A DNA stretch of 64,000 nucleotides from Kribbella antiqua (GTDB lineage: Bacteria; Actinomycetota; Actinomycetes; Propionibacteriales; Kribbellaceae): NCBI RefSeq assembly GCF_004345665.1, contig NZ_SLWR01000009.1, positions 186,001-250,000 on the forward strand, given 5' to 3'. Shown in pieces: positions 49,953 through 64,000 of this stretch; positions within the stretch are counted from its first letter, which is position 1; each line of letters begins with the position of its first letter. The notes below the pieces were generated by a model, which did no database searches, was not told the origin of the DNA, and was given only the letters and a program-made list of their open reading frames with translations. Both the position numbers and the translations under genes were made by a program.

Positions 49953-50948
49953 ATGTCGGACCGCCAAACCGCTGTCGCCGCCCGGAACCCGCCGTCGCGC
50001 GGTTCGGCCAGGCGACGCCGGAAAAGCAGCCCCTGGCGTCGCGGGTGGGTGATCGCCGTGCTCGCCGTGCTGACCGCCGTACCGCTGATGTTCCATCGCT
50101 ACGTGCCGAACTCGATCGGCAACCTCGGCAGCTTGCTCGACACGTTCCTGCCGTGGGTCGGCGTCGCCATACCGATTCTGGCGGTGTCTGCGGTGGTACG
50201 ACGTTCCGCGACGGCTGGGGTCGCGTTGCTCCTTCCGGCGGCGGTGTGGGGGCTGATGTTCGGGCACCTCCTAATCCCCGGCAAGGGCGGTGGCGCCTAC
50301 GACCTGCGGGTGCTCTCGCAGAACGTCGACGCGGACAACCCGGATCCGCAGAAGACGGCGCAGGAGCTGCTGGCGGCGGACGCGGATGTGGTGGCGCTCG
50401 AGGAGATCACCACGGCCGACATGAAGATCTACAAGGCAGCGTTCGCCAAGACCTATCCGTACGAGGTCCAGCGCGACACGGTCGCCCTCTGGTCGAAGTA
50501 TCCGGTCGCCCAGAGCAAGTCGGTCGACGTCGGCTTCAAGTGGACCCGAGCGCTGCGGGCCGAGGTGAATACGCCGGAGGGCAAGGTCGCGGTGTACGTC
50601 GCCCACCTGGCCTCGGTCCGGGTCGGAGCCGGCGGGTTCACGTCCGGCCAGCGCAACGACACGATCAAGGCGCTCGGCCGGCAGATCTCCGACGAGAAGC
50701 TGAACGGCGTGATCGTGATGGGCGACTTCAACGGTACGGCGAACGACCGCAGCCTGGCGCCGTTGACCACCGGACTGCGATCGGCGCAAGGCGCGGCCGG
50801 CTACGGCTTCGGATTCACCTGGCCGGCCAAGTTCCCGATGGCGCGAATCGACCACATCCTGGTCCGCGGCGTCACCCCTACCAAGGCCTGGGTAATGAAG
50901 TCCACCGGCAGCGACCACCGCCCAGTGGTAGCCGAGCTCAGGATCTAG
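49953..50948 (+). CDS. Membrane-anchored endonuclease/exonuclease/phosphatase family protein
   Basis: The 331-aa protein has a basic N-terminus, three membrane segments (WVIAVLAVLTAVPLMF; TFLPWVGVAIPILAVSAVV; GVALLLPAAVWGLMFGHLLI) and then an outward EEP domain. That domain shows LSQNVDADNPDP, VVALEEIT, GDFNGTAND, RIDHILVRG and GSDHRPVVAEL, so the catalytic Asp/His set is intact. It probably cleaves a phosphodiester or phosphoester outside the membrane; the substrate is unknown. Confidence 0.87.
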   Translation: MSDRQTAVAARNPPSRGSARRRRKSSPWRRGWVIAVLAVLTAVPLMFHRYVPNSIGNLGSLLDTFLPWVGVAIPILAVSAVVRRSATAGVALLLPAAVWGLMFGHLLIPGKGGGAYDLRVLSQNVDADNPDPQKTAQELLAADADVVALEEITTADMKIYKAAFAKTYPYEVQRDTVALWSKYPVAQSKSVDVGFKWTRALRAEVNTPEGKVAVYVAHLASVRVGAGGFTSGQRNDTIKALGRQISDEKLNGVIVMGDFNGTANDRSLAPLTTGLRSAQGAAGYGFGFTWPAKFPMARIDHILVRGVTPTKAWVMKSTGSDHRPVVAELRI

Positions 50949-51148
50949 TCCGCGATCGCCTTGAGGGAGGCGTAGCGGACCGCTTCGGCGCGGTGCCGGA
51001 CGACCTCGACGTTGCCCTCAGCAACAAGGTCGACTACGGGTGGAGATTCGGGTGGAGACGCGGGTCGGCGCGACTCTAGTTGAAAGCAGGAGTAACGTTC
51101 CGAACCGGTAACACCACCATCCGTCACATCGACGATGCGGGAGGCCGG

Positions 51149-52828
51149 ATGCTTGCGCAAGACTCGATCCTGAGGCTGGACGCCACGGCGATCGACTACA
51201 TCATCATCGCGTTGTACTTCACCTTCGTGCTCGGCATCGGGTACCTGGCCAAGCGCGCCGTCTCCAACAGCCTGGACTTCTTCCTCTCCGGCCGGTCGCT
51301 GCCGGCCTGGGTCACCGGCCTGGCGTTCATCTCGGCGAACCTGGGCGCGATCGAGATCATGGGCATGTCCGCGAACGGCGCGGAGTACGGCATGCCGACG
51401 GTGCACTACTTCTGGATCGGCGCGATCCCGGCGATGCTGTTCCTCGGCGTCGTGATGATGCCGTTCTACTACGGCTCGAAGGTGCGCAGCGTGCCGGAGT
51501 TCATGCTGCGCCGGTTCGGCAAGCCCGCGCACCTGGTGAACGCGATCAGCTTCGCCGTCGCCCAGGTGCTGATCGCCGGGGTGAACCTGTTCCTGCTGGC
51601 CACCATCGTCAACGTGCTGCTCGGCTGGCCGATCTGGGCGTCGGTGATCGTCGCCGCGCTGATCGTGCTCAGCTACATCACCCTCGGCGGCCTGTCCGCG
51701 GCGATCTACAACGAGGTGCTGCAGTTCTTCGTCATCGTCGCCGCGTTGCTGCCGCTGACCATCGTCGGCCTGCACAAGGTCGGCGGCTGGCAGGGCCTGG
51801 TCGACAAGGTGACCGCGTCGCCGGGCGGCTCCGAGCAGCTGAGCGCCTGGCCCGGCAACGCCCTGAGTGGCTTCAGCAGCAACTTCCTGTCCGTGATCGG
51901 TCTGGTCTTCGGCCTCGGTTTCGTCCTCTCGTTCGGCTACTGGACGACCAACTTCGTCGAGGTCCAGCGGGCGATGGCGTCGAAGAACATGTCGGCCGCC
52001 CGCCGTACGCCGATCATCGGGTCCTTCCCGAAGATGTTCGTCCCGTTCATCGTCATCATCCCGGGCATGATCGCGGCCGTGGTCGCGCCCGAGCTGGCCC
52101 AGTTCAAGGCCACCGGCAGCGGCGACGTCGACTACAACGATGCGCTGCTGATCCTGATGCGCGACCTGCTGCCGAACGGCATGCTCGGTCTCGCGATCAC
52201 CGGTCTGCTGGCGTCGTTCATGGCCGGTATGGCGGCCAACCTCAGCTCGTTCAACACGGTCATGACGTACGACCTGATCGAGCGGTACGTCGTCAAGGAC
52301 CGGCCGGACGGCTTCTACCTGCGTACCGGCCGCTGGGTGACTGTCGTCGGCACGCTGATCGCCATCGGGACCGCGGCGATCGCCTCCGGCTACAGCAACC
52401 TGATGGACTACCTCCAGCAGCTGTTCTCGTTCTTCAACGCGCCGCTGTTCGCCACGTTCATCCTCGGTATGTTCTGGAAGCGGATGACCGCGACGGCCGG
52501 TTGGGTCGGCCTGGTCAGCGGTACGGCGACCGCGGTGGCTGTGTTCGTTCTTTCGGAGAACGGCGTCATCGACCTGCCCGGCCAGGGTGCGAGCTTCGTC
52601 GGCGCCGGCGCGGCCTTCGTGGTGGACATCATCCTCAGCGTGATCGTCAGCCTGGTGACGACGCCGAAGCGCGACACCGAGCTCGTCGGACTGGTGTACT
52701 CGCTGACGCCCAAGGAGCACCTGAAGGAGGACGCCCAGCACGGCGACGGCGGCTGGTACCGCAAGCCGGTGCTGCTGGCCGGCATCTCGCTGGCGCTGAC
52801 CGTCGCACTCAACTTCGTCTTCGGCTGA
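51149..52828 (+). CDS. Sodium:solute symporter (SSS family)
   Basis: The 559-aa protein has 13-14 membrane segments. AKRAVSNSLDFFLSGRSLPA and FISANLGAIEIMGMSANGAE mark the SSS core, and GLLASFMAGMAANLSSFNTV forms the Na-site region. The C-terminus is a long hydrophilic tail followed by one last helix. It resembles the sugar or myo-inositol branch of the family. ATG 51149 has GGGAGG at 5 nt. In the 200 bp upstream (50949-51148) no gene is evident. Confidence 0.88.
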   Translation: MLAQDSILRLDATAIDYIIIALYFTFVLGIGYLAKRAVSNSLDFFLSGRSLPAWVTGLAFISANLGAIEIMGMSANGAEYGMPTVHYFWIGAIPAMLFLGVVMMPFYYGSKVRSVPEFMLRRFGKPAHLVNAISFAVAQVLIAGVNLFLLATIVNVLLGWPIWASVIVAALIVLSYITLGGLSAAIYNEVLQFFVIVAALLPLTIVGLHKVGGWQGLVDKVTASPGGSEQLSAWPGNALSGFSSNFLSVIGLVFGLGFVLSFGYWTTNFVEVQRAMASKNMSAARRTPIIGSFPKMFVPFIVIIPGMIAAVVAPELAQFKATGSGDVDYNDALLILMRDLLPNGMLGLAITGLLASFMAGMAANLSSFNTVMTYDLIERYVVKDRPDGFYLRTGRWVTVVGTLIAIGTAAIASGYSNLMDYLQQLFSFFNAPLFATFILGMFWKRMTATAGWVGLVSGTATAVAVFVLSENGVIDLPGQGASFVGAGAAFVVDIILSVIVSLVTTPKRDTELVGLVYSLTPKEHLKEDAQHGDGGWYRKPVLLAGISLALTVALNFVFG

Positions 52829-52847
52829 TCCCGGAAGGAGCACAGTC

Positions 52848-53111
52848 ATGGCTGATCGCGAGAAGAAGAAGGCCGGGGCGTTCGACATCCGGGTGGTGAT
52901 CGCGACGCTGATCGGGATCTACGGCCTGGTGCTGACGATCCTCGGCATCATCGCGGACCCGAAGGAGGTGGACAAGGCGGCCGGGATCAACATCAACCTC
53001 TGGGGCGGCATCGCGATGCTCGCCTTCGCCGCGTTGTTCGTCGCCTGGGCCCGGCTGCGGCCGATCGTCGTACCGATCACGGAAAGGCCGGCCGACGCTC
53101 CGGAGGAGTGA
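52848..53111 (+). CDS. Small two-helix membrane protein paired with the SSS symporter
   Basis: The 87-aa protein has a basic start (MADREKKKAGAFD), helix 1 (VVIATLIGIYGLVLTILGII), a short loop DPKEVDKAAGININL and helix 2 (GGIAMLAFAALFVAWARL), then a Pro/Glu tail. It lies 19 bp after the symporter with its own GGAAGGAG site. Small helical partners of SSS transporters are known, so a subunit or stabiliser role is likely. Confidence 0.78.
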   Translation: MADREKKKAGAFDIRVVIATLIGIYGLVLTILGIIADPKEVDKAAGININLWGGIAMLAFAALFVAWARLRPIVVPITERPADAPEE

Positions 53112-53146
53112 TCAGTACGATCGTGGCAGCCACCGGAGGCTGCGCC

Positions 53147-54070
53147 ATGACCACATCTCCGCCGCGCTGGGAGTACACGAGGCGACTCAACCGCGTCGTG
53201 AATCACATCAGCGAGCACCTCGACGAGCCGCTCACCCTGCGCGAGCTCGCCGACGTCGCCGGCTTCTCGCCGTACCACTTCCACCGCATCTTCAAAGGCG
53301 TCATGGGCGAGACATTGAGCAGCTTCATCTGGCGGCTGAGGGTGGAGCGAGCAGCCAGCCTGCTCCTCTGGCAGCCGACAACGCGAGTCACCGACATCGC
53401 GCTCAGCTGCGGTTTCTCCTCACACTCCAACTTCGCGCGGGCTTTCAAGGAGCGCTTCGGTGTCAGCGCCTCCGAGTTCCGCAAGGGTGGAGACATACAC
53501 CGCAAGGAGGGAGAAGGTGACAGCAGGCGTGCGCTCTACGCTCCGAAGGACTGGGACCTGTACCCCGAGGAGAGCCGCACGATGAACGTCGAAGTCAAGA
53601 CCCTGCCCGCCTACCACGTCGCCTACATCCGTCGCTTCGCCTACAGCAAAGGCGTCTTCGCCGAGCACCTCAACGCGGCCTTCCAGCAGGTCTGCGGCTG
53701 GGTCGCCGGCCAGGGCCTCTTCGGTCCCAACACCTTGGTCATCGGTGTACCCCACGACAATCCCGACGTCACGCCCAACGACCTCTGCCGGTACGACGCA
53801 TGTGTCACGGTGCCGGCGACTGTCACGACCGCTTCGGCAGAGGTCGACATCCAGGATCTCCCGGGCGGGCGCTACGCCGTACAGCGCCTGGACGTCGACG
53901 ACCCGGCCGAGATCGGCCGCAGCGTGGATGCGATGTACGGCGGTTGGCTGCCCGGCAGCGGCTTCCAGGCCGACGACCGCCCACCACTGGAGATCTACTA
54001 CGACAGCGCCGAGCCCGGCCCCAAGAAGCGCATCGTCCTCGACTTCTGCATTCCCGTCACCCCGCTGTGA
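53147..54070 (+). CDS. AraC family regulator with GyrI-like effector domain
   Basis: The 307-aa protein carries the AraC double HTH at residues about 10-110 (NHISEHLDEPLTLRELADVA, PYHFHRIFKGVMGETLSSFI, VTDIALSCGFSSHSNFARAF). The GyrI/SbmC ligand-binding domain fills about 155-305 (VKTLPAYHVAYIRRFAYSKG). This is the Rob/SoxS-with-effector layout that senses hydrophobic or drug-like ligands. ATG 53147 has GGAGG upstream. A GTG at 53108 overlapping the previous stop is an alternative. Confidence 0.88.
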   Translation: MTTSPPRWEYTRRLNRVVNHISEHLDEPLTLRELADVAGFSPYHFHRIFKGVMGETLSSFIWRLRVERAASLLLWQPTTRVTDIALSCGFSSHSNFARAFKERFGVSASEFRKGGDIHRKEGEGDSRRALYAPKDWDLYPEESRTMNVEVKTLPAYHVAYIRRFAYSKGVFAEHLNAAFQQVCGWVAGQGLFGPNTLVIGVPHDNPDVTPNDLCRYDACVTVPATVTTASAEVDIQDLPGGRYAVQRLDVDDPAEIGRSVDAMYGGWLPGSGFQADDRPPLEIYYDSAEPGPKKRIVLDFCIPVTPL

Positions 54071-54166
54071 GCATGTCCGTTTGGCGAACATCGGCGTCCG
54101 GTGTGGTCCTGCCGTCCGGGCGCCTGTGTTCGTAGGCTCGAAGTACCCGATCAGGAGGACTTCGAG

Positions 54167-54934
54167 ATGACCATCACTTCCGGTTCTTCGGACCTCGCGA
54201 CGCTGGCCGAGCGGTACGCCGAGGACGGCTTCGTGCTGGTGAAAGGCCTGCTCAGCAAGGAGGAAGCTGCCTTCTACCGGCAGCGCAGCCACGACCTGCT
54301 GGCCTTGCTGCACCGGGCCGACGACCCCACCTGGGCCGCCGCGCGGGAGATGACGGACGCACCGACGAAGCTGCAGCATCTGCACGACGCGCAGTTCTAC
54401 GACGCCGCGTTTTCCCGGCTGCTGGTGGACCCGCGGTTCACCGACGTGGCCGCCGCGGTGATGGGGGTGGAGAACGTGCAGCTGCACCACACCAAGCTGT
54501 TCGTGAAGCCGCCGGAGAACGGGTCGCCGTTCCCGCTGCACCAGGACTACCCGTTCTTCCCGCACAAGTACCACCGGGTCGGTGCGGCGATCTTCCACTT
54601 CGACGACGCGCCAGTCGAGAAGGGGTGCGTCAGGGTCATACCGGGCAGCCACAAGGAGGGGCCGCGGGAGCACGACCCGGAGGGGTCGTACCACTTGCCC
54701 GACGTACCGTTCGACTCGGCGATCCCGCAGCCGGCCGAGGCGGGCGACGTACTGTTCTTCACCTATCTGACCGTGCACGGGTCCGGGGTGAACGTCAGTG
54801 AGGAAGCCCGGACGACCTGGCTGATCCAGTACCGCGATCCGGCGGACCCGCCGACGGTGAAGACGCACGACTTCTCGCTCGGTCAGGGCATGATGCTGCG
54901 TGGAGTCGACCCGACCGGCAGGAGTGGCGTTTGA
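54167..54934 (+). CDS. Phytanoyl-CoA dioxygenase (PhyH) family protein
   Basis: This 255-aa Fe(II)/2-oxoglutarate oxygenase has the metal triad as HQD in PFPLHQDYPFFPHKYH and the distal His in TVHGSGVNVS. VRVIPGSHKEGPREHD is the typical second region. The substrate may be a natural product or sugar-related compound. ATG 54167 has AGGAGG at 8 nt. It is coupled to the following AraC regulator, which suggests joint control. Confidence 0.88.
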   Translation: MTITSGSSDLATLAERYAEDGFVLVKGLLSKEEAAFYRQRSHDLLALLHRADDPTWAAAREMTDAPTKLQHLHDAQFYDAAFSRLLVDPRFTDVAAAVMGVENVQLHHTKLFVKPPENGSPFPLHQDYPFFPHKYHRVGAAIFHFDDAPVEKGCVRVIPGSHKEGPREHDPEGSYHLPDVPFDSAIPQPAEAGDVLFFTYLTVHGSGVNVSEEARTTWLIQYRDPADPPTVKTHDFSLGQGMMLRGVDPTGRSGV

Positions 54935-55821
54935 CGCTTTCGGATGTCGCTGACGCGGACCGTTTCGTCGACCTCGCCGGGCTGCTGGAGTCCTGCGAGG
55001 TCGACGGGTTCCGTGCCGACTTCCTGAGCTGGGGGCACTACCGGCCGGAGTACTGGCGCAACTACTGGCACAGCCACTCCTTCCACGAGGTCTGCCTCGC
55101 GTACTCCGGCTCAGGCCGCTTCAACTCCGGAGACGTGCAGTACGACGTCCAGCCCGGCTCGGTCTTCATCGCCCGCCCCGGCGACGTCCACGAGATCGAG
55201 TCCAGCCGGTCCGAGCCCTTAGGCATAGCCTTCTGGGGCTTCACCTTCCGCCCGGGCTCTGACCAGCCTGGATGGTGGTCGGGCCTGACTCGAGCCGACG
55301 GCCCAGTGGTGTCCGACCGGACAGACTCGTTGCCGGCACTCATCACCGCGCTGGCCGCCGAGGCAGCAGCACCGTTGTCTGGCTACAACACCGCTCTAGC
55401 GGCTCTCGCCTCCACACTGGTGCTGGAAACCGCCCGCGCCTTCGCCCTCGACGAGGACCTGGCCGTCGAGCCCGTCGTACGTGACCGGGCTCCACTGGCC
55501 GTCGCCGCGATGCAGCGGCACCTCCGAGACAACCTGTCCCGGCAGATCACCGTCCGGGACGTCGCAGCCGCTGCCCACCTCTCCGAGCGCCATGCAGAGC
55601 GCCTGTTCCACCAGCAGACCGGAACGTCGATCATGTCCACCTTGCGCCGGCTGCGCCTCGAGCTGGCCGCACAGCTGCTGCTCGACCCAGCCGTCACCGT
55701 GACCGAGGTAGCCCGCTCCTGCGGCTATTCCGACGTACGCCCGTTCTCCACAGCCTTCCGCCGCCACTATGGCCGCACACCAGGCGACCACCGCCGCAGT
55801 GGAGGCACCGAGTTTATCTAG
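54931..55821 (+). CDS. AraC family transcriptional regulator (cupin N-terminus)
   Basis: The 296-aa protein has an N-terminal cupin-like sensor domain (WHSHSFHEVCLAYSGSGRFN, QPGSVFIARPGDVHEIESSR) and a C-terminal AraC double HTH (ITVRDVAAAAHLSERHAERL, TVTEVARSCGYSDVRPFSTA). The start is TTG 54931, overlapping the dioxygenase stop (TTGA), with AGGAG at 7 nt. A sugar or sugar-like ligand is usual for this layout. It is probably the local regulator of the PhyH gene. Confidence 0.88.
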   Translation: MTLSDVADADRFVDLAGLLESCEVDGFRADFLSWGHYRPEYWRNYWHSHSFHEVCLAYSGSGRFNSGDVQYDVQPGSVFIARPGDVHEIESSRSEPLGIAFWGFTFRPGSDQPGWWSGLTRADGPVVSDRTDSLPALITALAAEAAAPLSGYNTALAALASTLVLETARAFALDEDLAVEPVVRDRAPLAVAAMQRHLRDNLSRQITVRDVAAAAHLSERHAERLFHQQTGTSIMSTLRRLRLELAAQLLLDPAVTVTEVARSCGYSDVRPFSTAFRRHYGRTPGDHRRSGGTEFI

Positions 55822-55888
55822 AGCGACACCTGGACAGTGTTTCGCGTGGCTGCTCCAATGCAGCAACCACACCTCTGGGAGGGGTCAT

Positions 55889-56749
55889 ATGAGAAGTCGA
55901 CTCGGCCGCGTCATCGGCATCTGCGCGCTGGCACTCGGGCTGATCAGCCTGCCGGCGCTGTCCGCCTCCGCCATCACCGGCGGCGAGCCCGATGGCAACG
56001 GTCATCCCAACGTCGGCGTGATCCTGTTCTACCAACCCGACGGGCGCTTCCGCTGTACGGCGACCCTGGTCTCGCCGACGGTGCTGGTGACCGCGGCGCA
56101 CTGCACGCTGGGCACGCTCGGCAAGACGCTGGTGACGTTCGACTCGGTGATCGCCGAGCAGCCGCCGTCGCCGTTCCCGGTCGCTGCCGACCCGTCGAAG
56201 GGCTACACCCAGGCCGAGCTCGAGAAGGCCGGCTACAAGTCGGGTACGGCGTACGCGCACCCGAAGTACTCCGACTTCACCGACATGGACAACTGGAACG
56301 ACGTCGGCGTGATCGTGCTCGACAGGCCGGTCACCAACATCGCACCGGCCAAGATCGCGCCCACCAACTACCTGAACGCCTACCAGCAGCCGAAGCTGAA
56401 CAGCACGCTCTTCAGGTCTGTCGGCTACGGCACCGAGGTCCGCAAGGCCGACAGTGGTCCGCAGAAGCCGACCCCGATGTCGTACCCGCTGCTGCGCCGC
56501 TGGGCCGACGAGCCCGGCCAGAAGCTCACTCCGCAGATCCTGCAGGTGAACGGCAACGAGCACGACACCCGCGGCACCGGCGGCACCTGCTTTGGTGACT
56601 CCGGCGGCCCGACGTTCCTCGGTGGCTACCAGGTCACCGTGACCAGCTACGGCTACACCGCCAACTGCCGCTACCTCGACGGCCTGCAGCGGATCGACAT
56701 CAAGGTCGTCCAGGACTGGCTGAAGACGTACGGCGTACCGATCGGCTGA
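55889..56749 (+). CDS. Secreted trypsin-like serine protease (S1 family)
   Basis: The 286-aa protein has a signal peptide (VIGICALALGLISLPALSAS) and starts the mature fold with ITGG. The catalytic triad is visible as His in VTAAHC, Asp in NWNDVGVIVLD, and Ser in CFGDSGGP. A Cys pair (CTATL/AAHC and TCFGDSGG/NCRYLD) forms the usual disulfides. A strong GGGAGGGG site precedes ATG 55889. It stands alone with its own terminator. Confidence 0.92.
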   Translation: MRSRLGRVIGICALALGLISLPALSASAITGGEPDGNGHPNVGVILFYQPDGRFRCTATLVSPTVLVTAAHCTLGTLGKTLVTFDSVIAEQPPSPFPVAADPSKGYTQAELEKAGYKSGTAYAHPKYSDFTDMDNWNDVGVIVLDRPVTNIAPAKIAPTNYLNAYQQPKLNSTLFRSVGYGTEVRKADSGPQKPTPMSYPLLRRWADEPGQKLTPQILQVNGNEHDTRGTGGTCFGDSGGPTFLGGYQVTVTSYGYTANCRYLDGLQRIDIKVVQDWLKTYGVPIG

Positions 56750-56760
56750 CCGCTCTCCCT

Positions 56761-56799
56761 ACCGGTGCCGCGACCGTCTCAGTCGGTCGCGGCACCGGT
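56761..56799 (+). terminator. Perfect 16-bp hairpin terminator after the protease gene
   Basis: ACCGGTGCCGCGACCG (56761-56776) pairs fully with CGGTCGCGGCACCGGT (56784-56799) around TCTCAGT. The leuS leader promoter begins directly after it. Confidence 0.8.
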
Positions 56800-56801
56800 G
56801 C

Positions 56802-56807
56802 TATCCT
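56802..56807 (+). promoter_or_regulatory. -10 box of the leuS leader promoter
   Basis: TATCCT lies 6 nt before the leader ATG at 56814, the spacing of leaderless actinobacterial promoters. No good -35 hexamer is visible, and the upstream bases belong to the preceding terminator. Confidence 0.6.
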
Positions 56808-56813
56808 GATCGC

Positions 56814-56840
56814 ATGCGAGTGAGCCTGCTCCTTAGTTAG
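56814..56840 (+). CDS. leuS leader peptide with three consecutive Leu codons (MRVSLLLS)
   Basis: The codons are ATG CGA GTG AGC CTG CTC CTT AGT TAG. Three adjacent leucine codons, one of them the CTT that is rare in such GC-rich genomes, in an eight-codon leaderless frame just before hairpins and a terminator, are the signature of ribosome-mediated attenuation by leucyl-tRNA supply. It is followed at once by the first hairpin (56841). Confidence 0.8.
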   Translation: MRVSLLLS

Positions 56841-56908
56841 CCGTACTGGCATTCAGGCGCTAGAGCGCCGGTCAGTGCGGCACCCCCTCCTGTGCGAGGG
56901 GCTTTTTT
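56841..56908 (+). promoter_or_regulatory. leuS transcription attenuator
   Basis: Hairpin 1 pairs CCGTACTG (56841-56848) with CAGTGCGG (56873-56880), one T-G pair, and encloses a small GGCGC/GCGCC hairpin. The terminator is CCCCTC (56884-56889) / GAGGGG (56896-56901), followed by C and six T (56903-56908), a true U-run terminator. A ribosome stalled on the leader Leu codons would cover the 5' arm of hairpin 1. The exact antiterminator pairing was not resolved by eye. Such control would raise leuS when charged tRNA-Leu is scarce. Confidence 0.75.
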
Positions 56909-56970
56909 ATTTCTAGGTATGCCGTCTGGCAGATTAAGGCTCAACAAACACACGAAGCAGGAGTAGGACC

Positions 56971-59451
<2,481 letters not shown>

Positions 59452-59470
59452 CACGGGCTAGGCTGCTCAG

Positions 59471-59890
59471 ATGCGTTCTGAGCTGATCGATGTCGAGACC
59501 GGCGGTTCCGAGGTCGTCTTCGACCTGACGAGCAAGTGTGAGCAGTTCGTCGACTCTGAGGCCCATCAGGCTCAGGGCGACGGACTGCTGCACGTGTTCG
59601 TGCCGCACGCGACGGCCGGGATCGCGATCCTGGAGACCGGTGCGGGGAGCGACACCGACCTGCTCGCCTTGCTCGAGGAGGTGTTGCCGCGGGACTTCGG
59701 CTGGCGGCACCGGCACGGCACTCCTGGCCATGGGCGAGATCACGTGCTGCCCGCCTTCGTGCCGCCGTCCGCGACGATCCCGGTGCTCGACGGGCGGATG
59801 ATGCTCGGCACCTGGCAGTCCATCTGTCTGGTCGACACCAACGTGGACAATCCGCGCCGGCAGGTCCGGCTTTCCTGGCTGCCCGGTTAA
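59471..59890 (+). CDS. YjbQ/UPF0047 family protein
   Basis: The 139-aa protein has the family's conserved HVFVPHATAGIAILETGAGS, RHRHGTPGHGRDHVLPAFVP and GTWQSICLVDTNVDNPRRQV. Some members show thiamine-phosphate synthase-like side activity, but the physiological role is not settled. It starts 19 bp after leuS and is probably co-transcribed. Confidence 0.9.
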   Translation: MRSELIDVETGGSEVVFDLTSKCEQFVDSEAHQAQGDGLLHVFVPHATAGIAILETGAGSDTDLLALLEEVLPRDFGWRHRHGTPGHGRDHVLPAFVPPSATIPVLDGRMMLGTWQSICLVDTNVDNPRRQVRLSWLPG

Positions 59891-59991
59891 TGGACCACCC
59901 GGTAACCACGAGTTCCGGAATTCTTGTGACTTATCGCGATGTTGCGGGTCGCGTTACGCATGCGAAACACAGCTCCGGTTGAATTGCCCGC

Positions 59992-60198
59992 ATGGCAGCG
60001 CTTGACAACCTTCGGGCCCAGTGGGCGGGGCTAGGCACCGAACTTCTGATCCGCGCCACCCGCGGTATTTGTGATGGCAGCCTGCTGAATGCCGACACCG
60101 GCCGTGCCGACACCAGCGCCCGCCTCGAAGACTGGGCCGGCGTCCTTTCCCTTTACACCGGTGAAAATGAATCAGCCTCGGTTCGCGCGACGGCTTGA
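59992..60198 (+). CDS. 68-aa hypothetical protein
   Basis: ATG 59992 opens MAALDNLRAQWAGLGTELLI; a Gly/Asp middle and a polar tail (YTGENESASVRATA) follow. There is no ribosome site; TTGAAT 7 nt before the ATG could be a leaderless -10. Its third-codon GC is lower than that of neighbours toward the end. No family is recognised. The rest of the 478-bp gap between YjbQ and the large regulator (59891-60368) shows nothing else. Confidence 0.4.
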   Translation: MAALDNLRAQWAGLGTELLIRATRGICDGSLLNADTGRADTSARLEDWAGVLSLYTGENESASVRATA

Positions 60199-60368
60199 AA
60201 CGCGCATTCTGCCCCTTCAGTAATTGCAGACTTAATCACACTCGTTGCCTTTATTGCCCGTCCCCTGTGACCTGCGCCGCAGCAGACGTCACCGGGCGTC
60301 CCGGCGCCGGCGCCGTTGTCACGCTATGTTGTGACGGGAACGTGGGGCTGCAAGAGGGGTGACGGGCT

Positions 60369-62930
60369 TTGTCGGACACGGATGGCCGGGCTGAGGGACG
60401 GCGGGGTTTTGCCGATCTCCTGCTCGACTTGAGGGTCCAGGCGGGGCTCTCCCAGGAGGAGCTGGCCGATCGCGCCGGACTCAGCGTGCGGACCATCCGT
60501 GAGCTGGAGGCCGGCCGAGTGGCCCGGCCCCGCAAGGACTCCGTCCGGCTGCTGGCCGCAGGTTTGAAGCTCCATGACGGCGACGCCGAGCGCTTTCTCG
60601 CCGCCGCCGGCCACGGCACCGTGCGACCCGTCATCTCCGTTGCGGCGCCCGCACCGACCGGTCTGCGCTGGCGCGGCACGCGCCCGATCCCCGACGGCCT
60701 TGTCGGTCGCGAGCAGGAGCTGCAGGAGCTGCAGGCCCTACTGCGTCAGAACAGGCTCGTCACGCTGGTCGGCCCGGGTGGAGTAGGCAAGACCGAGCTT
60801 GCGCTGGCAGCGGCTGACCGCTTCTCCGGTGCTGACACCACAGTCGTGGTCGTCGACCTCACCACCGTCCAGCGCGATGCCGCCGTACCGTCTGCGATTC
60901 TCGACGCGTTCGGAACCGCACCAGGTACGTCGGACCTGGACGACGTACTGTCCGGTCGCGAGCCGGGGGACCTGGTGATCGTCGAGGACAACGCCGAGCA
61001 CGTGCTCGACGGGGTCGCGACGGTGGCGAACCGGATGGTCCGCAGCTTCCCGGGCATCGGCGTACTGGTGACGTCGCGGATCCCGCTCGGCCTGCCGGAC
61101 GAGGTGGTCCGCCGGGTCCAGGTGCTCGAGGTGCCGGCGAACGACAAGGACTTCGCGGAGATCGCGGCCAGCCCGGCGGTGGAGATGTTCTCCCGCCGGG
61201 TCGCGCGAGTGCGGCCTGACTTCCAGCTGACCGAGGAGAACGCTCCGACCGTAGCCAGGCTGTGCCGTCGGCTGGACGGGCTGCCGCTCGCGCTGGAGCT
61301 GGCGGCCGCGCGGGCCGGGTCGCTGTCGGTGGAGACGATCCTGGCCGCTCTGGACGACCGGTTCCGGCTGCTATCCGGGCCGCGGCGGTTCGGAGCGCCA
61401 CACCAGCGCACGCTGGCGGACACGATCGCGTGGAGTGTGGACGCGCTGTCGGACCCCGCGCGGCAGATGCTGTATCGCGCGTCAGTGCTCGGGTCGCCGT
61501 TCACGCTGGAAGCGGTGGCCGGCGTGTGTACGGGCGAGCCGATCGACGGCGCCGACGTACCGATGTTGCTAGCCGAGCTGGTGGACAAGTCGCTGCTGCA
61601 GCCTGTGCTGGAGTTCGAGCAGCTGTACGGCGCTCGCTACAAGCTGCTGGAGACGATCCGGGAGCACGCGTACGCCGGTCTGGCGTCGCAGGGTGACGAC
61701 CTGACCGAGTTCCAGGACCGGGCGGTCGAGTGGTGCTCGACGTACGTCTCGGGGTTGGAGGGCGCCTGGTCCTCACCGGATCGCGACCGCCGCTACCGGG
61801 CAGCGCACGCGAACTCGGCCCTCTTCGAGGTAGCCCTCGAGCGAGCAGCTGCGCTGGAGAAGTGGGATGTGGCCGCGCAGATCGTGCTGGGCTTCCGGAT
61901 CGCGTGGCAGTACCAGGCGAGCGTGGCCGAGAGCGGGATCCGCTGGGCGACGCTGTGCGCGGAGAACGTCGAGAACAAGGAAGTCAGCGGCATGCTGCGG
62001 GCGATCGCCGGGCGGCTGTCCAGTCTGACCGGTGACATCCGTGGTGCCCGCCGGCACTACGGTGAGGCGCGCACACTCATCCCCGGCGAGACGGAGATGG
62101 GGCTGGTCGCTCGTGGCGGGTGGGTGTCCTCCGGTTCCCACTTGCTCGACATGCAGAGCCTGGCGGAGGTGCCTGCGCTGGTCGAGGACGCGCGTAAGCA
62201 CGGGAACGTGCAGCGGTCCGCAACAGTCCAGGCGATCTGCGGGCTGGCCCTGCTGCGCTGGGGACGCCTGCCCGAGGCCAAGGAGCTGCTGCTCGCCTGG
62301 CAGGCCGCGCTGGTCAACCCGGGCGTCTACCCGGACGAGATCGCGTACATGGCGCTCAGCCGGGTTGAACTCGAGTTGGGCAACCTGTCCGAGGCACGGC
62401 GCTGGGCGAAACTGGCCCAGGACAGCCAGGCGTCGGACGACCCCGAGCGTACGAAGGTGGCCGGCTGCCTGGCCATGGTCGAGTACCACGACGGCCGGTA
62501 CGACGAGGCTCGCGCTCTGCTCGACGAGGCCGACGCCGACATCCGGGGCCACCGTGGGTACTTCGACTACCTGGTGATGCTCCACCGGTCCCGGCTCGCC
62601 CGTGACGCCGGAGACCTTGATCAGGCACGGCTGTGCATCCGTGACGCGGTAAACCGGCTCCTGGCCGAGGGCCGGGTCGTGTACCTGCTCGACGTACTGC
62701 CCGAGGCGGTGGCCGTGCTGCACGCCCTGGGGAAGTCTGCTGAGGGTGACCAGCTCTGCGGGCAGTTGCTGGCGTGGCAGCGGTCTATGGACCCGCCGAT
62801 GCTTCCTACCGCGTGGTCGGTGCTGCAGGAGTCGTGTGCCAGTGCGTCGGTGGCCGATGGGTGGCCCGAGCCTGACCCGGCGGCCGCCGTACAGCGGCTG
62901 GCGAACGACGTACTCGCTGCCCTTTCGTGA
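60369..62930 (+). CDS. XRE-type regulator with NB-ARC ATPase and TPR-like repeats
   Basis: The 853-aa protein has an N-terminal HTH (LRVQAGLSQEELADRAGLSV, RTIRELEAGRVARP; about 15-60). A STAND/NB-ARC ATPase follows (P-loop VTLVGPGGVGKTELALAAAD at about 132; Walker B-like LVIVEDNAEHVLDG; LCRRLDGLPLALELAAARAG as the GLPL motif). The alpha-helical region (about 460-853) is TPR-like. This is the AfsR/SARP-related STAND regulator design without the SARP output domain. The start is TTG 60369. Target genes unknown. Confidence 0.85.
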   Translation: MSDTDGRAEGRRGFADLLLDLRVQAGLSQEELADRAGLSVRTIRELEAGRVARPRKDSVRLLAAGLKLHDGDAERFLAAAGHGTVRPVISVAAPAPTGLRWRGTRPIPDGLVGREQELQELQALLRQNRLVTLVGPGGVGKTELALAAADRFSGADTTVVVVDLTTVQRDAAVPSAILDAFGTAPGTSDLDDVLSGREPGDLVIVEDNAEHVLDGVATVANRMVRSFPGIGVLVTSRIPLGLPDEVVRRVQVLEVPANDKDFAEIAASPAVEMFSRRVARVRPDFQLTEENAPTVARLCRRLDGLPLALELAAARAGSLSVETILAALDDRFRLLSGPRRFGAPHQRTLADTIAWSVDALSDPARQMLYRASVLGSPFTLEAVAGVCTGEPIDGADVPMLLAELVDKSLLQPVLEFEQLYGARYKLLETIREHAYAGLASQGDDLTEFQDRAVEWCSTYVSGLEGAWSSPDRDRRYRAAHANSALFEVALERAAALEKWDVAAQIVLGFRIAWQYQASVAESGIRWATLCAENVENKEVSGMLRAIAGRLSSLTGDIRGARRHYGEARTLIPGETEMGLVARGGWVSSGSHLLDMQSLAEVPALVEDARKHGNVQRSATVQAICGLALLRWGRLPEAKELLLAWQAALVNPGVYPDEIAYMALSRVELELGNLSEARRWAKLAQDSQASDDPERTKVAGCLAMVEYHDGRYDEARALLDEADADIRGHRGYFDYLVMLHRSRLARDAGDLDQARLCIRDAVNRLLAEGRVVYLLDVLPEAVAVLHALGKSAEGDQLCGQLLAWQRSMDPPMLPTAWSVLQESCASASVADGWPEPDPAAAVQRLANDVLAALS

Positions 62931-63533
62931 CGGCGATCCCGCTGAAGCTGCCGGGTAACTGCCGGGTCTTCTGCCTCGTCCTGACATGGCTGCCGGACGA
63001 AGAATTACAGCCGTAGGACAGGTTCCACGAAGCAGAGACCGATGCCGGGCTCGGGCATCACGGGCAGGGAAAGAGGCGGTGACCATGACGAGGCAGCCAT
63101 GGCTCACCAGACTGCCCGGGTACTCATCGAGCTTTGGAAAGGCGACGCGGAGGGCATCCGGCGGCCGGACGGTGGGGGCGCCGATCGGCTGTCGAGAGCT
63201 CCGGAGTGCTGCGACGTGCGGATCTGTCCTGCCAGTACCGGGTGCCGTGCGCCGTCAGGGCACCACACCCGGGGCGGGGTCCCAGCACTGGACCGGGCAC
63301 ACGACACAGGGGACGAGTGCCGGTCCTGCTGACACGGGGAAACCGGCGGGCTTGGTCACCCGCCGGTGGGTCAGATGCTGGGGCTCCCCGGGGACCTCGG
63401 CGAGCTCGCGGTCAGGCCGGCCTTCGCGGGACCGGTACGGGGAGTAGCTCACCGAGGAACTTGAACTCTGCTGACGACGAGGGGGAGTCAGCACAAGTGA
63501 GGCAAAGGCTGATTCACAGGGGAAGTCAGCCGC
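62931..63533. other. Gene-poor 600-bp stretch with one Cys-rich candidate frame
   Basis: No family is recognised here. The best candidate is 63099-63332 on the plus strand: ATG with ACGAGG at 6 nt, 77 codons, opening MAHQTARVLIELWKGDAEGI and with a Cys-rich second half (PECCDVRICPASTGC; DECRSC). An overlapping frame from ATG 63087 reads MTRQPWLTRLPGYSSSFGKA and runs to 63447. Both could be noise; the region has many GC-rich short palindromes. Confidence 0.3.
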
Positions 63534-63573
63534 AGCGAGGTGAAGGCCCCGGAGGGGTGGCCTTCACCTCGCT
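63534..63573 (-). terminator. Strong hairpin at the 3' end of the PPOX gene
   Basis: AGCGAGGTGAAGGCC (63534-63548) pairs perfectly with GGCCTTCACCTCGCT (63559-63573) around CCGGAGGGGT. It overlaps the PPOX stop codon by two bases and probably ends that transcript. Confidence 0.75.
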
Positions 63574-64000
63574 AGTCTTTCGCGTCCTTCAGGACCGCCG
63601 TCTTGTCGAAGGCGTAGCCGACGATCCAGGTGGGCTGCAGGCGGCAGTAGACGATGTCCTCGCCCCAGCTGGACGGTGAACTGCCATAGTGCTTGGTCAG
63701 ATGTGCCTCGATCTCGGCGAAATCCGCGTGTTCCGGGGTCAGGAACTCCACGTCGCCGTGACTGAACACCCCGATCCGCTCCCCGTCGACGTACGAGATG
63801 CTCGCCGCCGGTCTCGCCTTGAGCTGCCTCGCCTTCGCAGCCGAGCCAGACGTGGTGAACACCCACCGGGCATGCAGGAAGTGCCCGTCGACCGCGCTGA
63901 TCCGTGGCTCACCGCGCGCGGTGACCGTGGCGAGGTTGATCGTGCACATCCCGGTCAGAACCCGCACCAGCTCGGCCGCGGTCAGCCGGCGTGGGCCCTT
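63572..64000 (-). CDS. Pyridoxamine 5'-phosphate oxidase-like (PPOX/F420-type) protein, N-terminus beyond the window
   Basis: The frame is open to the right edge (KGPRRLTAAELVRVLTGMCT) and continues TINLATVTARGEPRISAVDG, VFTTSGSAAKARQLKARPAA and WGEDIVYCRLQPTWIVGYAF. This split-barrel flavin or F420-binding fold is typical of actinobacterial PPOX proteins. The true start is probably just outside the window. It is followed by a strong terminator hairpin. Confidence 0.82.
   Translation of the reverse strand, partial: KGPRRLTAAELVRVLTGMCTINLATVTARGEPRISAVDGHFLHARWVFTTSGSAAKARQLKARPAASISYVDGERIGVFSHGDVEFLTPEHADFAEIEAHLTKHYGSSPSSWGEDIVYCRLQPTWIVGYAFDKTAVLKDAKD

Follow-up and report, generated by a model that had tools for sequence, protein, structure and literature searches.

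The leucyl-tRNA synthetase gene (leuS) of Kribbella antiqua is preceded by a short leader for which the assignment as a leucine-specific leader-peptide attenuator is strongly supported by comparative sequence analysis, and this element likely acts as a ribosome-mediated transcription attenuator through which leuS expression would respond to how fully leucine tRNA is charged. The leucine-specific assignment is backed by the conservation of the leader, the covariation of its stems, the encoding of Leu-Leu in every leader recovered by a scan that specified no amino acid, and an isoleucine counterpart upstream of the citramalate synthase gene (cimA). The computed evidence further includes a marked bias toward the codon CTT, a fixed geometry, and a first hairpin (P1) whose predicted state is decided by the modeled position of the ribosome. 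The window referred to throughout is the whole 64,000-nt stretch of DNA that was analyzed (contig NZ_SLWR01000009.1, positions 186,001 to 250,000), and coordinates are numbered from its first base.

A preliminary description of this region had claimed a -10 box, an eight-codon open reading frame with the codons CTG CTC CTT, a hairpin at its stop codon, and a U-run terminator; all of these are present in their places on the plus strand, with 107 bp from the -10 box to the T run. The -10 box reads TATCCT (of the form TANNNT; 56802..56807), while a sigma-70 scan of the window sequence returned no -35 consensus and no full promoter upstream of the leader. The leader ORF, recognized from the sequence and its homologues, is ATG CGA GTG AGC CTG CTC CTT AGT TAG (MRVSLLLS*; 56814..56840), eight codons and a stop, with the ATG at 56814 located six bases 3′ of the -10 box. 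This spacing, together with an RNA-seq statement on the Streptomyces lividans homologue (see below), suggests that the transcript is probably leaderless in this species as well. The Leu codons CTG CTC CTT occupy 56826..56834, and comparison of leaders identifies the CTT at 56832-56834 as the constant codon. Hairpin P1 (56840..56881), delineated by folding, a register test, and covariation, has 11 bp (56840-56850 with 56871-56881) and an inner hairpin in the 56855-56869 region; its first base is the G of the leader stop codon TAG (56840), and it starts 5 nt past the CTT and ends 2 nt ahead of the terminator. The predicted intrinsic terminator hairpin, CCCCTC-CTGTGC-GAGGGG (56884..56901; terminator scan, folding, and covariation), is followed, one C after the stem, by the run TTTTTT (56903..56908). 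The leuS gene itself starts with GTG at 56971 and encodes 826 amino acids (56971..59451), and its product matches TIGR00396 (leuS_bact) with 958 bits against a cut-off of 548.

Attenuators described as classical were predicted before leuS in Streptomyces coelicolor and Streptomyces avermitilis by Seliverstov et al. (2005; PMC1262725), and the RNA-seq reannotation of S. lividans TK24 reports, as LeuL2, a leaderless peptide, MRAVRLLLSEPR, with a hairpin and a U stretch before leuS (PMC8079986). The use of a short leaderless peptide on a tRNA synthetase, which the preliminary description had called notable, is thus already known from these two sources. The resemblance to the S. coelicolor and S. 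avermitilis element includes a Leu-codon leader ORF, hairpins, and a poly-U terminator before leuS, and that to LeuL2 includes the leaderless peptide, three Leu codons, the hairpin, and the U stretch ahead of leuS; the LeuL2 peptide, however, has 12 residues rather than the eight found here (PMC1262725; PMC8079986). Among the genomes compared, the LeuL2 peptide recurs letter for letter in 7 of the 14 leaders of family f22, which we infer to be Streptomyces because of this identity. In all 14 f22 genomes where leuS was matched, the leader is present, before the same gene and with the same order and geometry (ORF, CTT, P1, terminator), although the f22 ORF has twelve codons and ends inside P1, whereas that in the window has eight and its stop codon lies at the foot of P1, and the Leu codons are CTT CTG CTT in 13 of the 14 f22 leaders instead of CTG CTC CTT. 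Judged by these correspondences, the window element is the Streptomyces leuS attenuator, or LeuL2 element, in another genus and with a shorter ORF. A Leu-codon leader peptide also occurs in the LEU element upstream of actinobacterial leuA (PMC1262725). What the present analysis adds is the breadth across the class, the CUU rule, the geometry in which P1 abuts the terminator, and the cimA counterpart. In four f22 loci (L115, L116, L117, and L119), a tRNA gene with anticodon TGC, resembling tRNA-Ala by eye, lies upstream of the leuS leader.

Within the genus Kribbella, the leader was found ahead of leuS in all 37 genomes examined. The peptides read MRVxLLLx in 36 of these and MRATLLLS in one, and the Leu codons are CTG CTC CTT in 36 and CTG CTT CTT in the remaining one (L035). 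The preliminary description had named relatives without the Leu codon run or the terminator as the finding that would speak against it; in the genus, no genome of the 37 lacks the Leu run, and a terminator was scored in every one, its T run being interrupted in L010. Aligning the leuS upstream regions of relatives, as had also been proposed there, revealed conserved Leu codons and covarying P1 and terminator stems. The interruption in L010 (1405-1428) follows the terminator stem and reads GAGGGGCATCTTCTTTTT, and because of it termination may be weak in that genome.

To look beyond the genus, a scan blind to residue identity was applied, defined by TANNNT, a gap of 4-9 nt, a reading frame of 5-25 codons starting with ATG or GTG, and a terminator, whatever amino acids were encoded. 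Of 171 genomes, 105 gave a positive result in the region before leuS, a lower bound obtained on a non-random set that comprises 50 of the 58 relatives (a leuS match was present in 58 of 58 searched), loci from further searches, and 40 places hand-picked from the list of one of these (one a repeat). The same scan returned 0 of 171 antisense strands and 0 of 112 leuS coding stretches, which argues that the leader is more than a chance arrangement. Every one of the 105 leaders encodes Leu-Leu, and 83 of them have 6 nt between -10 box and start codon while the other 22 have 7 nt, out of the 4-9 nt that the scan permits. The 66 scan-negative loci are a mixture of apparent real absences (as in family f7), cut or misplaced loci, and leaders missing one criterion. 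At least eight of them (L049, L064, L074, L084, L087, L126, L136, and L141) have a leader by eye with one criterion missed; L154 and L163 are shortened by contig ends; and at least L056, L070, L075, and L076 were misplaced because of contig ends, with leuS coding sequence seen by eye in the place of the expected upstream region. Families without a scan match include f7 (0/5) and f21 (0/4), yet one f21 genome (G280) has a match before leuS to the covariance model described below, as does the genome of the misplaced locus L076.

A covariance model was built from 47 leaders, selected among those with CTT and a length of at most 95 nt; given this selection, the model cannot test CTT itself. In the K. 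antiqua genome it yields one strong match, the leuS leader (77.7 bits), and the next match (21.7 bits, E 0.07) does not look like an attenuator by eye. Of 383 genomes of the class, 165 have a match at E ≤0.001 and 218 do not, and the model covers own-genus and f22 leaders alike. Outside the genus, then, the leader is absent from part of the class, which counts against a universal role. Among the matches listed, 80 were taken, of which 76 lie in genomes where the place of leuS is known; 72 of these are situated 47-236 nt before leuS on the same strand. The other four of the 76 comprise two before a leuS-like sequence (by eye) and two before a citramalate-synthase-like gene (cimA).

Both hairpins are supported by covariation. 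In a MAFFT alignment of the 47 leaders, changes on both sides with pairing kept occur in 5 of 9 P1 pairs, and both-side changes occur in 2 of 4 terminator consensus pairs (a covarying pair being one for which at least one sequence has both sides changed and the pair kept); three pairs at the foot of P1 are invariant. The position of P1 was further examined with a register test, in which the 5′ arm was made to begin 5 nt past the final CTT and the 3′ arm to end 2 nt ahead of the terminator core. Five of the 105 leaders, lacking either CTT or a C-rich core, were excluded, and the remaining 100 rows contained 73 unique ones. Over these 73 rows, 94% of positions pair at the fixed register, compared with 27-63% when the arms are slid by 1-4 nt in either direction. 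The spacing from the last CTT to P1 is 5 nt in 80 of 103 leaders. From the end of P1 to the terminator, as these were delimited in the folding analysis, there are 0-2 nt in 95 of 105 leaders and 4 nt in 7, with an overlap by 4 in the other 3.

The choice of leucine codons is strongly skewed. The 105 leaders contain 314 Leu codons, namely 134 CTT, 104 CTG, 75 CTC, and one TTG. At these loci, CTT accounts for 43% of the leader Leu codons and for 1.3% (87/6918) of those in the leuS coding sequence. CTT is present in 103 of the 105 leaders, the exceptions being L149 (CTC CTC) and L173 (CTG CTC CTC). Because CTT sits in differing contexts (CTT CTG CTT, CTG CTT CTT, CTG CTG CTT, CTG CTT CTC), it is apparently the codon that is constrained, rather than a hexamer at the RNA level. 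A role of CTCCTT as an RNA signal, either resembling an anti-Shine-Dalgarno sequence or pairing with the AGGAG of leuS or with GAGGGG, was considered and dropped, as other families show CTTCTGCTT, CTGCTTCTT, CTGCTGCTT, and CTGCTTCTC. From 55 tRNA matches in the K. antiqua genome, eleven stretches were taken (ten long matches and one more), and in these ARAGORN identified four tRNA-Leu genes, with anticodons TAG, TAA, GAG, and CAG, the GAG gene being present once. By the decoding rules, a tRNA-Leu with anticodon GAG should read CUC and, by wobble, CUU. No description of this CUU rule for leuS leaders of Actinobacteria was found in open PubMed Central papers. The leu operon of Salmonella and E. 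coli likewise has a rare Leu codon as control codon, and there, according to PMC1183508, citing Carter (1986), changes from CUA to CUG lower sensitivity; that system differs in belonging to a biosynthetic operon and in using CUA, not CUU (PMC1183508).

The same arrangement, a short ORF and then a hairpin that abuts a terminator, occurs before cimA. A follow-up on 24 relatives, 23 of which have a cimA match, found it in 18 of the 23 genomes and in 16 of 16 from the own genus, and all 18 leader ORFs contain an ATT codon. In K. antiqua, the leader peptide is MKNYRGIIP with codons ATT ATT (L246; G000:C10, upstream of 93364-94050, minus strand). At L228, the clear case of the two cimA matches to the covariance model, the leader reads VPSSLIIIARRAG with codons ATC ATT ATT, and the assignment of the gene as cimA is based on a piece from this locus, whose best family is the TIGR00977 citramalate synthase at 288 bits (a partial protein, against a whole-protein cut-off of 450). 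ATC ATT ATT also stands ahead of the hairpin before the cimA-like gene of L227. One further cimA leader (L233) was recognized by eye and missed by the layout search, and is not among the 18. Once more the encoded amino acid matches the gene and once more the codon ends in U, which supports amino-acid-specific attenuation for the leuS and cimA leaders. No cimA leader was found in print among open PubMed Central papers. Loci with the isoleucine module (L246, L231, L237-L253, L227, and L228) have a terminator with a T run.

The preliminary description had called this a complete leucine attenuator of leuS. The attenuator itself is upheld by the conservation, the covariation, and the Leu-Leu in 105 of 105 leaders, while the completeness is not: no antiterminator appeared in nested folds, and the terminator is predicted in nearly every state. 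For these folds, a ribosome footprint was modeled at three positions, reaching 18 nt to the 5′ side and 12 nt to the 3′ side of the first base in the A site. When the first Leu codon occupies the A site, P1 is predicted to be closed in all 105 leaders; for the last Leu codon this holds in 26, and for the stop codon in none. As the state of P1 follows the modeled position, P1 reports where the ribosome is. These counts take the helix from the free fold, and the independent checks on P1 are therefore the register test and the alignment only. The terminator, in contrast, is predicted with a probability above 0.5 in 102, 102, 99, and 92 of the 105 leaders for the first Leu codon, the last Leu codon, the stop codon, and the ribosome-free RNA, respectively, and in the window's own sequence every terminator pair has at least 0.91 in all states tried. 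Terminators were mis-delimited in L043, L052, and L137 in the folding analysis, and three low terminator values are consequently artefacts. Since the terminator is predicted to fold in nearly every state, no two-state switch of the expected sense is visible, and nested secondary structure does not supply the full set of parts for a classical switch. Constrained nested folds with a stalled ribosome, for the window's sequence and the 105 leaders including those of f22, contained no antiterminator that excludes the terminator. The enteric leu attenuator includes an overlapping antiterminator, and its leader carries a ribosome site of its own. For leuS of S. coelicolor and S. avermitilis, the authors of the prediction describe an attenuator with an antiterminator, and the same paper refers to mutation work on the S. 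coelicolor ilvB and leuA leaders at odds with classical attenuation (PMC1262725).

A working model for the leuS leader can be assembled from these observations. Transcription would start at or near the A of the ATG at 56814, and a ribosome would translate the eight-codon ORF from the 5′ end of the transcript. With ample Leu-tRNA, the ribosome would reach the stop codon and cover the 5′ arm of P1, and polymerase would stop at the U run (OFF). With scarce Leu-tRNA, it would halt on CTG-CTC-CTT, mostly at the rare CTT read through wobble by tRNA-Leu(GAG), which would make CTT the main sensor. With the ribosome stalled on the Leu run, P1 would be closed or half closed beside the terminator, and read-through into leuS would increase (ON). 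The step from P1 to the terminator might consist of pausing, or of a steric action of P1 on the abutting terminator.

Other readings of the leader have to be weighed against this model. In some leaders the Leu-codon/stop region can pair with the 3′ arm of the terminator around P1, which would give an occupancy switch of opposite sense, in which ribosome-free RNA permits read-through while any ribosome, stalled or at the stop codon, imposes termination. The ribosome-free terminator probability is below 0.5 in 6 of 37 own-genus leaders and in 4 of 11 leaders of family f20, and in the six inspected (L011, L012, L024, L029, L059, and L062) the leader takes the terminator 3′ arm in the ribosome-free fold. 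When leaders and terminators were swapped, native pairing was stronger in f20 (-16.3 vs. -12.2 and -12.4 kcal/mol) and less clearly so in the own genus (-13.4 vs. -12.6 and -11.1 kcal/mol; within-genus p 0.13). Across families, however, native beats swapped pairing in only 4 of 14, with permutation p values of 0.61 (14 representatives) and 0.70 (49), and on this class-wide test the pairing was rejected as a general antiterminator. In the window's own ribosome-free RNA, it is 3.8 kcal/mol worse than the terminator. A ribosome stalled on the leader would prevent the pairing, the reverse of the usual logic, and such a switch would reduce leuS expression under leucine shortage, a response of little physiological sense; we regard it as improbable.

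Predicted termination in nearly every ribosome state would also be consistent with an early terminator that acts constitutively downstream of a small leaderless ORF whose Leu codons have no sensing role. Against this stand the Leu-Leu of all 105 residue-blind leaders, the CTT in 103 of them, and the Ile codons in the same layout ahead of an Ile-pathway gene, and we give it little credence. Least credible is that the ORF is a bystander and control lies with some other RNA device, for instance a T-box or a leader bound by a protein: the ORF is conserved, P1 stands at a fixed distance from the CTT, and an Rfam search of 50000-64000 up to E 1 returned no T-box or other relevant match, its sole match being a chance one at 55546-55653 (E 0.37, below the gathering score).

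With the present results, the leuS attenuator predicted in 2005 for two Streptomyces extends, in a rigid geometry, over much of the class, and its leaders constitute a strong body of comparative data for studying how such an attenuator switches. The near-universal CUU, together with the AUU before cimA, also offers a clear test of which tRNA state is sensed, and of the selective-charging idea outside E. coli. As a tentative generalization, which we consider conceivable but not probable, the two leaders may represent a portable actinobacterial layout composed of a U-ending wobble codon (CUU for leuS, AUU for cimA), ∼5 nt, a variable but strictly paired P1, 2 nt, and a terminator, with no antiterminator helix, in which the ribosome would be read out only via P1 acting by pausing or sterics.

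Additional features flank the leader in the window. Between a trypsin-like gene and the -10 box lies a perfect inverted repeat with 16-bp arms (56761-56776 and 56784-56799), which spans the -35 region; L004 and L010 have a similar repeat, judged by eye, and that in the window probably marks the end of the upstream transcript. On the other side, a Shine-Dalgarno-like AGGAG at 56959..56963 (plus strand), identified from the sequence, presumably serves leuS. Between the terminator and this ribosome site, the block TCTGGCAGATTAAGGCTCAAC (56925-56945) recurs by eye, slightly altered, in many members of the genus; a second promoter, independent of the terminator, or some other signal may be located there.
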